A stretch of 64,000 nucleotides of DNA from Enterobacter sp. 10-1. GTDB lineage: Bacteria; Pseudomonadota; Gammaproteobacteria; Enterobacterales; Enterobacteriaceae. Where the stretch lies: the NCBI GenBank assembly GCA_002270295.1, contig NISF01000003.1, positions 558,001 through 622,000 of the forward strand. Reading direction: 5' to 3'. The position numbers were made by a program, and so were the translations under genes. Below are positions 23,138 to 31,299 of the stretch, one piece after another. Positions within the stretch are counted from its first letter, which is position 1. Every line of letters begins with the position of its first letter. A model generated the notes under the pieces. That model worked only from the letters and a program-made list of their open reading frames with translations. It had not been told where the DNA came from and searched no databases.

Positions 23138-23168
23138 GGGTTGTTACTGCATTTAAGCAGGCAAAACC
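23138..23168 (+). promoter_or_regulatory. RNA antiterminator site (RAT) 1, bglG leader
   Basis: Starts GGGTTGTTACTGCATT and ends GCAGGCAAAACC. This is the bgl-type ribonucleic antiterminator: the ends, the GTTACTGC arm and the GCAGGCAAAACC arm match the E. coli bgl RAT closely. Its 3' end overlaps the following terminator stem, so binding of dephosphorylated BglG would stop the terminator from folding. Confidence 0.9.
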
Positions 23169-23207
23169 AGATACACGCTTCTATTTGTAGCGATATCTGG
23201 TTTTTTT
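23164..23207 (+). terminator. Leader terminator overlapping RAT 1
   Basis: Arms AAACCAGATA (23164-23173) and TATCTGGTTT (23194-23203), with an inner CGCT/AGCG pairing and a seven-base T-run. The first five bases are shared with RAT 1. Confidence 0.88.
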
Positions 23208-23226
23208 ATTTTCAAGGCTCAAAAAA

Positions 23227-24054
23227 ATGAAAATAACTAAAATACTTAATAATAATGTTGTAACAGTCATAGATGAGCATCATAACGAACAGATCGTAAT
23301 GGGACGTGGATTAGGATACAAAAAAAAAGTCGGAGATGAAATAAATGACATACTGATTGAAAAAGTGTTTGAACTGCGCAGCCATGAATTGATTGCTAGG
23401 TTAAGTGAATTGCTGAGTCATATTCCCCTTGAGGTGTTGACAACCGCAGATAAGATCATAAATCTGGCTCGTCAGAAACTGCCAGGCAAACTACAGGACA
23501 GCGTCTATATATCACTGACCGACCACTGCCATTTTGCCATTGAGCGTTGCCGTCAGGGAGTGGCGATACATAATGTATTGCTTTGGGATATCAAGCGGTT
23601 ATATCAGAATGAATTTACCGTGGGACTGGAGGCGCTGGAGGTTATCTACCAGCGTCTGGGCGTCAGGCTGCCAGAGGATGAAGCTGGTTTTGTCGCATTG
23701 CATCTGGTGAATGCCCAACTGGACAGCCATATGCCAGAAGTCATTAAAATTACTAAGGTAATGCAGGAAATTCTTCAAATCGTCAAATATCAGTTAAACA
23801 TTGAATACAATGAGAAAGCGTTGAGCTATCACCGTTTTGTCACACACCTGAAATTTTTTGCCCAGCGACTGCTGGGGCGAGACTGGGTATACAGTAGCGA
23901 TGAATCTCTGCATGATGTGGTGAAGGAAAAATATTCGCTTTCGTACCGCTGTGCGGAAAAAATACAGACTCACATCGTTAATCAATACCACTACATATTG
24001 ACAAAAGAGGAATTGATGTTTTTGACCATTCATATTGAACGCGTCAGAATTTAA
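23227..24054 (+). CDS. bglG: BglG-family transcriptional antiterminator
   Basis: RNA-binding antiterminator, 275 residues. An N-terminal CAT RNA-binding domain (about residues 1-55, [34 protein letters not shown]) is followed by two PTS regulation domains with the conserved His-containing segments [22 protein letters not shown] and [10 protein letters not shown]. In the family, the PTS permease phosphorylates and inactivates BglG when no substrate is present. Two RATs flank the gene, exactly as in the E. coli bgl operon. Its base composition is richer in A and T than that of the permease that follows. Confidence 0.95.
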
Positions 24055-24171
24055 CTTATAGATCAGGAGGCTGAATAACTAAAATTTGCGCCAACTCACA
24101 AAATAATGATATGGCGTAGTTTATAAACTTGTTAGTGGATTAAAAAGCAGTATTCTGTCGCAAGATAAAAT

Positions 24172-24197
24172 GGATTGTTACCGTATTGGGCAAAACC
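24172..24197 (+). promoter_or_regulatory. RNA antiterminator site (RAT) 2, between bglG and bglF
   Basis: Begins GGATTGTTACCG and ends GGGCAAAACC, 26 nt. It precedes a terminator in the bglG-bglF gap, matching the second RAT of E. coli bgl. Confidence 0.85.
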
Positions 24198-24208
24198 AGA
24201 TGCGGGCA

Positions 24209-24268
24209 AAACCTGAATCATTTTTCTGCATGGCTGAAGCCGCAGAAAAATGGTTTGGGTTTTTTTTC
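24209..24268 (+). terminator. Terminator between bglG and bglF
   Basis: Outer arms AAACC / GGTTT and inner arms CATTTTTCTGC (24219-24229) / GCAGAAAAATG (24242-24252), followed by a T-run at 24260-24267. Read-through is expected only with the antiterminator. Confidence 0.85.
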
Positions 24269-24344
24269 GTTCCTAAAACAGTATCAGACATCCATATGTC
24301 TGGATGTCTCAGAGTAGTGACTGAGCGTGAGTTAAGGATAATTA

Positions 24345-29647: not shown

Positions 29648-30889
29648 TCAATTGTTCTGCTTTTGCTGATAGTGTTGGGTTCTGATGACTTTCTTGATTT
29701 TAGACAAGGATACACTCTGTCTCATTAATTGCAATAGATGACGCATTACCGGCAGCGAGTGATGCAGATGCAAAGCAAAACTTTCGCAGAAATAATTCTT
29801 ATTAGGACGTCCGTCACTGGAGATATTGAAACGGTGTTTAGGACAGCCACCGTTACAGACTGAGCGTACGGCGCAATTCATGCAGTCCTTGCTGATGTTT
29901 TTCAGTTTGCTCTGACCAAACGTGATGTTTTGGGGCGAATTGACTATTTTTGTGAGGTCGCCATGGTTAATATTTCCCAGCTTATGTTCGGGATAAACGA
30001 AATGGTCACAAGAGTAAATATCGCCATTCGCTTCAACGATAAGATTGCCGCCACATGTTTCGTTAATTACACAGGCGCTGGTCTGGCCGACCATTTTGGC
30101 CATGGTTTGCTCAAAATTCATCACGAATACTGTGCCTAAATCGTTCATGATCCAATGGTCAAAAATAGTATTAAGAAAATTTCCATAGGCTTTGGCGGGA
30201 ACTGACCAGTCGGTGACACTGCATTGGCCGGAGAAATCAGGCTGAATGAGAGTGAGGCCATTTTCATCGGCGACTGCGGCGCGTCGTTCCACCAGCGGAA
30301 TAAACTGCATATAGCGGCTGCCGATGCGCTTGAGAAAATTATAAACATCCATTGGGCGTTTAACATTCTCCGCATTAACTACCGTCAGAGTATTGAACTC
30401 GACCTGGTGACGTTTTAATGCTTCTAAACCCTTAATCACCGCATTGTATGTGCTTTTTCCGGCACGGGTCAGACGATATGTATCATTGCTGATACGGTCG
30501 CCATCAATCGACAACCCGACCAGAAAATTATTCTCTTTGAGGAAAACCGCCCATTCATCATCAATATTTGTACCATTAGTCTGGAAGGAATTATTAATGA
30601 TTTTAGTCCCGCGATAATGATTCTGCAAGCGAATCGCTTCGCGGAAAAAATCAATGCCGAGTAGTGTAGGCTCTCCACCTTGCCATATAAAATCAACCAC
30701 ATCCGCTTTTTGCCCTTGAATATTCTTGCGAATATAATTCTCCAGCGTTATACCGTCCATTTTCCAGTGGCTTTTACGTTCGGGGTAAAGAAGCTCTTTT
30801 TCCAGATAAAAACAGTAAGAACAATCAATGTTGCATACCGAACCGGACGGTTTAGCCATTAATTGAAAATTTGCGATATGATCAGCCAT
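29648..30889 (-). CDS. Anaerobic sulfatase-maturating enzyme (radical SAM)
   Basis: Converts the active-site Cys or Ser of a sulfatase to formylglycine. About 413 residues; the ATG at 30889 and a GTG three bases earlier both follow GAGGTAGTGA. The radical-SAM cluster motif is CNIDCSYC (C19, C23, C26). The C-terminal SPASM-type domain has the Cys-rich stretches CGGNLIVEANGDIYSCDHFV, CMNCAVRSVCNGGCPKHRF and a final C near NYFCESFALH. It is divergent from the sulfatase gene, its evident client. A RAT-like element and terminator stand in its leader (30947-31022), so expression should depend on antitermination. Confidence 0.93.
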   Translation of the reverse strand: MADHIANFQLMAKPSGSVCNIDCSYCFYLEKELLYPERKSHWKMDGITLENYIRKNIQGQKADVVDFIWQGGEPTLLGIDFFREAIRLQNHYRGTKIINNSFQTNGTNIDDEWAVFLKENNFLVGLSIDGDRISNDTYRLTRAGKSTYNAVIKGLEALKRHQVEFNTLTVVNAENVKRPMDVYNFLKRIGSRYMQFIPLVERRAAVADENGLTLIQPDFSGQCSVTDWSVPAKAYGNFLNTIFDHWIMNDLGTVFVMNFEQTMAKMVGQTSACVINETCGGNLIVEANGDIYSCDHFVYPEHKLGNINHGDLTKIVNSPQNITFGQSKLKNISKDCMNCAVRSVCNGGCPKHRFNISSDGRPNKNYFCESFALHLHHSLPVMRHLLQLMRQSVSLSKIKKVIRTQHYQQKQNN

Positions 30890-30946
30890 CACTCACTACC
30901 TCTTTATTTTACTAATTATAAAATTCCGTGGTGTTAAATTTACAAC

Positions 30947-31000
30947 GAAAAAAAACCATATAGCAAAAAACTATGAACTTAGTTATATGCTATATGGTTT
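30947..31000 (-). terminator. Leader terminator of the sulfatase-maturase gene
   Basis: On the minus strand, arms AAACCATATAGC and GCTATATGGTTT (30989-31000 and 30953-30964) enclose a smaller AACTA/TAGTT pairing and are followed by a run of T. It ends about 55 bp before the start codon, so without antitermination most transcripts would stop here. Confidence 0.85.
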
Positions 31001-31022
31001 CGCCCGTATCCGGTTACGATCC
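30996..31022 (-). promoter_or_regulatory. RNA antiterminator site (RAT) 3, maturase leader
   Basis: Minus strand begins GGATCGTAACC and ends GGGCGAAACC, 27 nt, with its last five bases forming the start of the terminator stem. The layout is that of RAT 1 and RAT 2, with T to C at position 5 and A to G in the 3' arm. Confidence 0.75.
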
Positions 31023-31076
31023 TTTTCTCGAAGATACTCATGTGTAGATGACGAGGCAATTGACGATAACCGACTT

Positions 31077-31092
31077 CGTGATACTTATCACG
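31077..31092. promoter_or_regulatory. Possible CRP site between maturase and sulfatase genes
   Basis: CGTGATACTTATCACG, a symmetric match to TGTGA-N6-TCACA with one change per half-site. It lies midway between the two divergent leaders and could serve both. Confidence 0.5.
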
Positions 31093-31224
31093 TTTTCTTT
31101 AAGGCATGTTCTCCCTAAAGTGGAATTGATGGATATCGAAGACATCGATTTTTTATGATTTAAATCACAAAATCCCTTATAAAGAGTTGAATAAAAATAT
31201 GATTTTATCATGCTATTCGCTAGC

Positions 31225-31251
31225 GGATCGTGACTATATAAAGGCGAAACC
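31225..31251 (+). promoter_or_regulatory. RNA antiterminator site (RAT) 4, sulfatase leader
   Basis: Begins GGATCGTGAC and ends AAGGCGAAACC, 27 nt, the same length and same two substitutions as RAT 3. The last four bases overlap the terminator stem that follows. Confidence 0.75.
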
Positions 31252-31299
31252 CGGCAGTGAAGAGGAAGGTATCTCCCTCTTCACTGCCGGGTTTTTTCT
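31248..31299 (+). terminator. Leader terminator of the sulfatase gene
   Basis: Perfect 18-bp arms (31248-31265 and 31276-31293; sequence AACCCGGCAGTGAAGAGG) with a 10-base loop and the T-run GTTTTTTCTTTTT. It sits about 55 bp before the sulfatase start. Confidence 0.9.

Follow-up and report, generated by a model that had tools for sequence, protein, structure and literature searches.

A predicted BglG-type antitermination switch before a secreted sulfatase and its maturase in Enterobacter sp. 10-1

We have analyzed a stretch of 64,000 nt from Enterobacter sp. 10-1 (contig NISF01000003.1, positions 558,001 to 622,000; hereafter the window), in which a bgl gene cluster lies next to two divergent genes, one coding for an anaerobic sulfatase maturase and the other for a secreted sulfatase. 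Each of the two is preceded by a ribonucleic antiterminator (RAT) sequence, RAT3 before the maturase and RAT4 before the sulfatase, and an original prediction had proposed that both genes are under antiterminator control. Our results support this proposal. RAT3 and RAT4 are very probably the antiterminator halves of two divergent BglG-type attenuators, and their sequences predict that maturase and sulfatase would be made together with the bgl genes during beta-glucoside transport. The evidence comes from the covariation of 67 RAT sequences, from paired changes in the terminators of Intestinirhabdus alba, from the recurrence of the arrangement in other genera with other gene orders and from the intact BglG encoded in the window. 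In the BglG family the antiterminator acts in its dephosphorylated form, by binding to the RAT and holding back the 3' strand of the terminator, and the EII permease keeps BglG inactive as long as no beta-glucoside is being phosphorylated. By analogy with this family, the sulfatase would be on only while the permease of the phosphotransferase system (PTS) transports its substrate.

Leaders of the maturase and sulfatase genes

RAT3 (30996–31022, minus strand) and RAT4 (31225–31251, plus strand) were detected both by pattern search and by folding. They are C5-G variants of 27 nt that satisfy the RAT length of about 26–42 nt and the ends GGAUYGUNAC ... GGCRAAACC, and each has its 3' end in common with a strong terminator. 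That of the maturase leader (30948–30999, minus strand) folds with −27.2 kcal/mol (z −6.0) and that of the sulfatase leader (31246–31303, plus strand) with −43.0 kcal/mol (z −8.7), and in both cases none of 200 shuffles was as good. The T-run ends 58 bp ahead of the maturase ATG (30889) and 46–52 bp ahead of the sulfatase ATG (31350), where the original prediction gave approximately 55 bp. A GTG at 31257, the start of the mechanically called open reading frame, was set aside, the ATG being the most likely start, as in I. alba.

For the pattern search we used GGATYGTNACN{5,14}GGCRAAACC, with the same pattern reversed as control. Eight sites were found in the 6.1 Mb genome and none with the reversed pattern. 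RAT1 (23138–23168, plus strand), located before bglG, falls outside these eight sites, having a GGG start in place of GGA. It overlaps the bglG leader terminator (23163–23207, plus strand; −22.7 kcal/mol, z −4.6, 1 of 200 shuffles as good) in the leader fold. RAT2 precedes bglF and is best described in an extended form (24172–24213, plus strand) with a longer hairpin and two GGGCAAAACC copies, the second of which overlaps the terminator (24208–24267, plus strand; −42.8 kcal/mol, z −6.5). The 26-nt version given before corresponds to its 5' part and falls short of the terminator. Pattern search and inspection of the sequence bore out the positions of the four RATs, and the folding of the four leaders, proposed as a check, gave a terminator in each. 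RAT1 is 31 nt long. The overlap with the terminator was found for RAT1, RAT3, RAT4 and the extended RAT2 and not for the 26-nt form. No match to Rfam was obtained in the window at gathering scores, and four relaxed-pattern matches (3122, 12539, 58267 and 60553) were taken for chance.

We then compared 67 distinct standard RATs from all the loci collected, many of them from related genomes and hence not independent. Pair 5/−6 was formed in all 67 (shuffle maximum 66), as U-A in 59, U-G in 5 and C-G in 3, and the C-A combination, which the pattern allowed, was never seen. RAT3 and RAT4 carry C for U at position 5 and G for A at its partner, i.e., a compensated change from U-A to C-G. Pair 11/−10 was formed in 67 of 67 (shuffle maximum 59), pair 12/−11 in 64 of 66 (shuffle maximum 63) and pair 13/−12 in 49 of 55, each of these three exceeding all 2000 shuffles, and RAT3 fits the pairing throughout. 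A terminator overlapping the RAT was present in 93 of 93 unique contexts, against 228 of 3000 random places.

Both leaders also have CRP-like sites. A palindrome at 31077–31092 (2/10 mismatched) is centred 62.5 nt upstream of RAT3 and a site at 31154–31169 (1/10 mismatched) is centred 63.5 nt upstream of RAT4, although for RAT3 the scan ranked the other site first, at a distance of 139.5 nt. The position of RAT3 and RAT4 and these CRP-like sites fit a putative transcribed leader between promoter and start codon. CRP-like sites (no more than 2/10 mismatches, within 170 nt upstream) were found at 53 of 92 RATs, compared with 8 of 92 for the reversed control and 137 of 1840 simple shuffles, counts that are not independent because one site can serve both leaders of a divergent pair.

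The leaders lie beside an intact cluster of bglG, bglF, bglB and porin genes. The bglG/licT antiterminator gene (23227–24054, plus strand) codes for a CAT domain and two PRDs, scored over the cut-off of NF046042 and of the LicT and BglG models, and matched PDB 1tlv and 6twr. Its histidines 100, 159, 207 and 269, at the four expected PRD places, we take to be the LicT phosphorylation sites. The next two genes, bglF for a beta-glucoside EIIABC (24345–26240, plus strand; NF007335) and a bglB-like gene for a 6-phospho-beta-glucosidase of family GH1 (26263–27657, plus strand; NF007356), were also over cut-off. BglG, BglF and BglB are all intact. A LamB/BglH-type outer-membrane porin (27983–29611, plus strand) has a LamB subfamily model as its best match, below the cut-off of that model. 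The maturase (29648–30889, minus strand), a radical SAM/SPASM protein, gave 483.7 bits with TIGR03942 (cut-off 349.45) and matched 4k36, the alignment to which shows the CxxxCxxC motif as CNIDCSYC. The sulfatase (31350–33053, plus strand) is of the S1 type with the Cys-type motif CSPSR at residue 86, and by eye it appears to be a secreted protein with a signal peptide. It matched the Pfam Sulfatase family and PDB sulfatases down to E 1.1e-75, the closest solved structures being named mucin-desulfating or GlcNAc-6-sulfatases. The whole genome has three CAT-domain (BglG-type) proteins, seven Pfam sulfatase-domain matches and two maturases over cut-off.

RAT-headed genes in other loci and genomes

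The same sulfatase (96%) is found in I. alba together with both leaders. The RAT ends are unchanged there, RAT4 is identical and RAT3 differs in the loop. The terminator stems contain paired changes, two in the maturase leader and one in the sulfatase leader. Both CRP-like spacer sites are kept, in one of them with the same half-sites and a changed six-base spacer. The region of this genome from L016:1560-5931 contains a bglF cut to 266 aa, followed by another sulfatase and a porin-like gene.

A RAT located directly before a sulfatase or a maturase gene was found in the window, I. alba, Pectobacterium fontis, Vibrio ruber, Atlantibacter, a Klebsiella pneumoniae plasmid and one further genome (G485), and before an apparent operon holding such genes in P. 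carotovorum and Hafnia. The arrangements differ. In P. fontis one RAT precedes the maturase and another bglF, and the row ends with a porin and a sulfatase. V. ruber has RATs before a sulfatase, two further sulfatases (one at 452 bp) and a porin-like gene. The Atlantibacter RAT stands before the maturase and adjoins bglG-bglF-bglB-porin-sulfatase, while in Hafnia psychrotolerans the RAT precedes porin-sulfatase and the maturase has none. P. carotovorum has a shorter C-G RAT before BglF-maturase-sulfatase. The K. pneumoniae plasmid (NZ_CP092401.1) carries bglG, bglF, ascB, three sulfatases and a maturase. Its divergent RATs are separated by about 220 bp; one precedes a sulfatase and the other a porin-like gene and an arylsulfatase. 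In G485 the RAT lies directly before the maturase inside a bgl-sulfatase cluster. That such switches are also found ahead of sulfatase genes in a number of other bacteria suggests that the removal of sulfate from sugars is restricted to times at which the corresponding sugar is taken up. In V. ruber a chemotaxis receptor gene (L021:5332-7233) is also found behind a RAT (7382, minus strand), which would tie chemotaxis to PTS antitermination.

A family of proteins of about 390 aa adjoins sulfatases in four loci (L016:4762-5931, L021:13775-14935, L127:18544-19707 and L170:9136-10332). They are probably outer-membrane porins, and the three members scanned, all except that of L127, had no Pfam match.

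Relatives of the sulfatase were located at 80 loci, of which 6 have RATs, all six among the nine listed first (the reversed control gave 1 match in 1.17 Mb). In 295 genomes of the order we obtained 108 maturase matches, spread over 71 genomes. Standard RATs numbered 72 and came from 36 genomes (control 1), with a pattern that misses short C-G RATs and GGG starts like that of RAT1. Two Methylobacillus loci had neither RAT nor bgl genes, and no true RAT was seen in the control regions (E. coli ydeM/ydeN and the maturase regions of Pantoea and Photobacterium); one control match in L195 lacked the end motifs and was taken for chance.

The same RAT design appears to control other secreted enzymes that remove ester groups. 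In the genome of Enterobacter sp. 10-1 itself, contig C37 (L014:2812-6823; C37:96811-100822) has an SdsA-type alkyl sulfatase, i.e., a second sulfatase fold, and an OprB porin, divergent and each behind an identical RAT core. This contig also encodes, by eye, plasmid-type replication and resolvase proteins; the locus had no close DNA match among plasmids, where the protein relatives were below 60% identity. On contig C22 (L012:2624-6242) a divergent RAT pair has on one side a secreted histidine phosphatase and an OprD-type porin, and on the other a SurE-type phosphatase that, by eye, seems to have a signal peptide. Within the genus, RATs were found in all 20 genomes searched and a divergent pair within 400 bp in 14 of them, own genome included; in the four of these 14 in which the genes were read, all were phosphatase pairs. 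Elsewhere, RATs precede a porin and a histidine phosphatase (G042), a nucleotidase-like protein (G007), a GH3 enzyme (G464) and a porin with a putative esterase (G001 and, by likeness, G008), and carboxylesterases occur within the bgl clusters of P. fontis, G464 and G485. Many further RATs precede plain bgl genes only (bglG, bglF, porin). The regions in which genes were read were hand-picked from lists and give no rate.

These loci could represent, in Enterobacterales and Vibrionales, a BglG/RAT regulon of secreted ester-removing enzymes and porins, including S1 sulfatases with their maturase, SdsA-type alkyl sulfatases, histidine, SurE-type and nucleotidase-like phosphatases, and carboxylesterases inside RAT-headed clusters, in which PTS flux would permit the blocking ester groups to be removed from beta-glucosides before these reach the cytoplasm. 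We put this forward tentatively, as a generalization about as easily wrong as right. The PTS phosphorylates O6 of glucose, and perhaps this position would be freed; our guess is that either a sulfatase of GlcNAc-6-sulfatase type or a phosphomonoesterase could do so.

Reader of the leaders and competing explanations

Several observations weigh against the antiterminator reading of RAT3 and RAT4. Of the bglG at the I. alba locus only the 3' part survives, with an insert, and bglF is truncated, yet both leaders are kept, so that either the one other BglG of I. alba reads the leaders or the locus is decaying. RAT4 folded alone is weak (z −0.32; RAT3 is moderate only, z −1.39) and its third apical pair (12/−11) is a mispaired A-A. 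At pair 5/−6, C-G occurs in RAT3, in RAT4 and in RAT3 of I. alba, three cases that come from one locus and represent one covariation event, and RAT3 and RAT4 differ from RAT1 and RAT2 at this very pair, which makes recognition by the local BglG uncertain. The terminator test let through one of the 93 contexts (L155, inside a maturase gene and with a long loop) that we took for chance. No RAT was found in 74 of the 80 loci with sulfatase relatives (some cut by contig ends), nor in Vibrio sp. HA2012, which has a BglF-BglB-sulfatase-maturase row. Finally, maturases with a standard RAT immediately before them are uncommon in the 295 genomes, 2 of 108 (the window and G485). A rough estimate, taking 300 bp upstream of each maturase and an assumed total of about 1.1 Gb, gives an expectation of about 0.001 by chance, and the 30 maturase loci retrieved in this search all lacked a true RAT, so that the link between RATs and maturases exceeds chance expectation but is limited to certain loci.

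The hairpins might instead be ordinary fixed attenuators or leftover terminators, the likeness to RATs being due to chance or to a relic with no reader. The leaders kept beside a broken bglG in I. alba and the weak fold of RAT4 alone would fit this, but we consider it very improbable, given the absence of reversed-pattern matches in the genome, the RAT ends that are unchanged in I. alba and the terminators preserved there through paired changes, the RAT-sulfatase links in other genera and the CRP-like sites at a distance common among other RATs. Less improbable, although still unlikely, is that the leaders are true antiterminator leaders read by the distant protein of contig C32, in which case the sulfatase would answer to the sugar of that permease. 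The RATs of the C32 operon (GGACGTAAYC...RGCGARACC) carry C-G at the same pair, RAT3 has CGTAAC and GGGCGA in common with one of them, and in P. carotovorum it is a short-type C-G RAT that stands before the BglF-maturase-sulfatase row. On the other hand, the C32-type RATs lack U4 and are shorter by one base, the local bglG lies close to the RAT3 and RAT4 leaders, and I. alba keeps both RATs with no C32-type protein. The one CAT protein found in I. alba is of the second kind, 84% identical to the standard BglG, which speaks against the need for the third protein. A third alternative, to which we give slightly more weight while still doubting it, accepts the switch and questions its purpose: the enzymes would not prepare PTS substrates but scavenge sulfate or phosphate from plant material, beta-glucosides being a mere cue of plant tissue. 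The varied target chemistry (sulfate esters, alkyl sulfates, phosphate monoesters) favors scavenging, whereas each RAT-linked sulfatase locus read also has a bgl-type EII (or remnant), a GH1 enzyme or a carbohydrate porin, and scavenging of S or P leaves the carboxylesterases in bgl clusters unexplained.

Judging from these sequences, the local BglG is the likeliest reader of RAT3 and RAT4, and cross-reading by another BglG is possible. The local protein is 62% identical to the second BglG of the genome and 47% to the third, the C32 protein, which has the shorter C-G RATs of its own. CAT residues 30–32, read by eye, are GYK in the window protein, AFQ in the standard one and GFG in that of C32; they are a possible determinant of the C-G preference, although GFG in G485 occurs with both RAT types. 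It is possible that C32-type RATs are a separate class for GFG-type CAT domains. Contig C32 (L015:4582-9554) holds a third bgl-type operon, with RATs that lack U4 and have the C-G pair.

In the mechanism that we infer for the sulfatase, transcription of both divergent leaders would start at CRP-activated promoters and, by analogy with known family members, would proceed beyond the leader terminator only when the RAT is bound by a BglG-family protein in its dephosphorylated form. During beta-glucoside transport, maturase and secreted sulfatase would be made with bglF, bglB and porin. The maturase would make the formylglycine of the sulfatase, which in turn may remove sulfate from sulfated beta-glucosides in the periplasm. 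The freed glucoside would enter via BglF and be split by BglB, closing a feed-forward loop. Secreted enzymes that remove ester groups, under joint CRP and BglG control, would in this way form a regulon that makes blocked beta-glucosides available for PTS uptake.

Known systems, significance and distribution

The targets of E. coli bgl and of Bacillus subtilis LicT are PTS, phospho-glucosidase and porin genes. The window has in common with them the antiterminator family, the layout of RAT and terminator and the CRP-like sites, and differs in its two additional leaders, with the C-G variant RAT, before a sulfatase and a maturase. The pairing of a sulfatase with an anaerobic maturase resembles Klebsiella atsBA, which is regulated by sulfur and tyramine. 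This genome has a second such pair on contig C11, and near that sulfatase there was one match of a very relaxed RAT pattern only, not RAT-like by eye.

The original prediction knew of no sulfatase system under PTS-linked antitermination, and our searches of the open-access literature agree: there we found nothing on a sulfatase or maturase as target of BglG/RAT antitermination, nor on SurE or histidine phosphatases linked to an antiterminator. RAT-controlled secreted enzymes are already known elsewhere. One of the closest cases is NagY/hylA of Enterococcus faecalis, in which the single gene of a polysaccharide lyase, HylA, lies behind a RAT/terminator and is read in trans by a BglG/SacY-type protein (PMC9981650). 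It differs in being Gram positive and in its enzyme and sugar, N-acetylglucosamine, and the excerpt of that article names no sulfatase or maturase. In Streptococcus pneumoniae a PTS operon (SPH1922-1930) includes a sulfatase and a sulfatase-modifying enzyme (PMC3302838); its PTS is of the lactose type, the authors link a MarR/ROK-type DNA-binding regulator and the excerpt mentions no RAT. For Clostridium acetobutylicum the RAT consensus ends in GGCGAGACC, according to part of the corresponding article (PMC12628678).

If the reading is correct, the activation of a sulfatase, which costs also a radical-SAM enzyme, would be tied to PTS sugar flux by an RNA switch, enterobacterial sulfatases would gain a testable inducer and substrate class, and one type of regulator would probably be shared by secreted phosphatases and esterases in a large genus of enterobacteria. 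Glucosinolates are among the sulfated beta-glucosides, and according to a review it is still unclear what part bacterial sulfatases play in their case (PMC6767122).

Close relatives of the window sulfatase were found in 2 of 295 genomes of the family, own genome counted. Its relatives on plasmids were all below 60% identity, and a distant DNA search of E. coli genomes gave short ydeM matches only. After the sulfatase gene the window contains an IS5-family transposase (33402–34145; 247 aa, first 51 model positions missing), a neighbor that fits a mobile, patchy locus.

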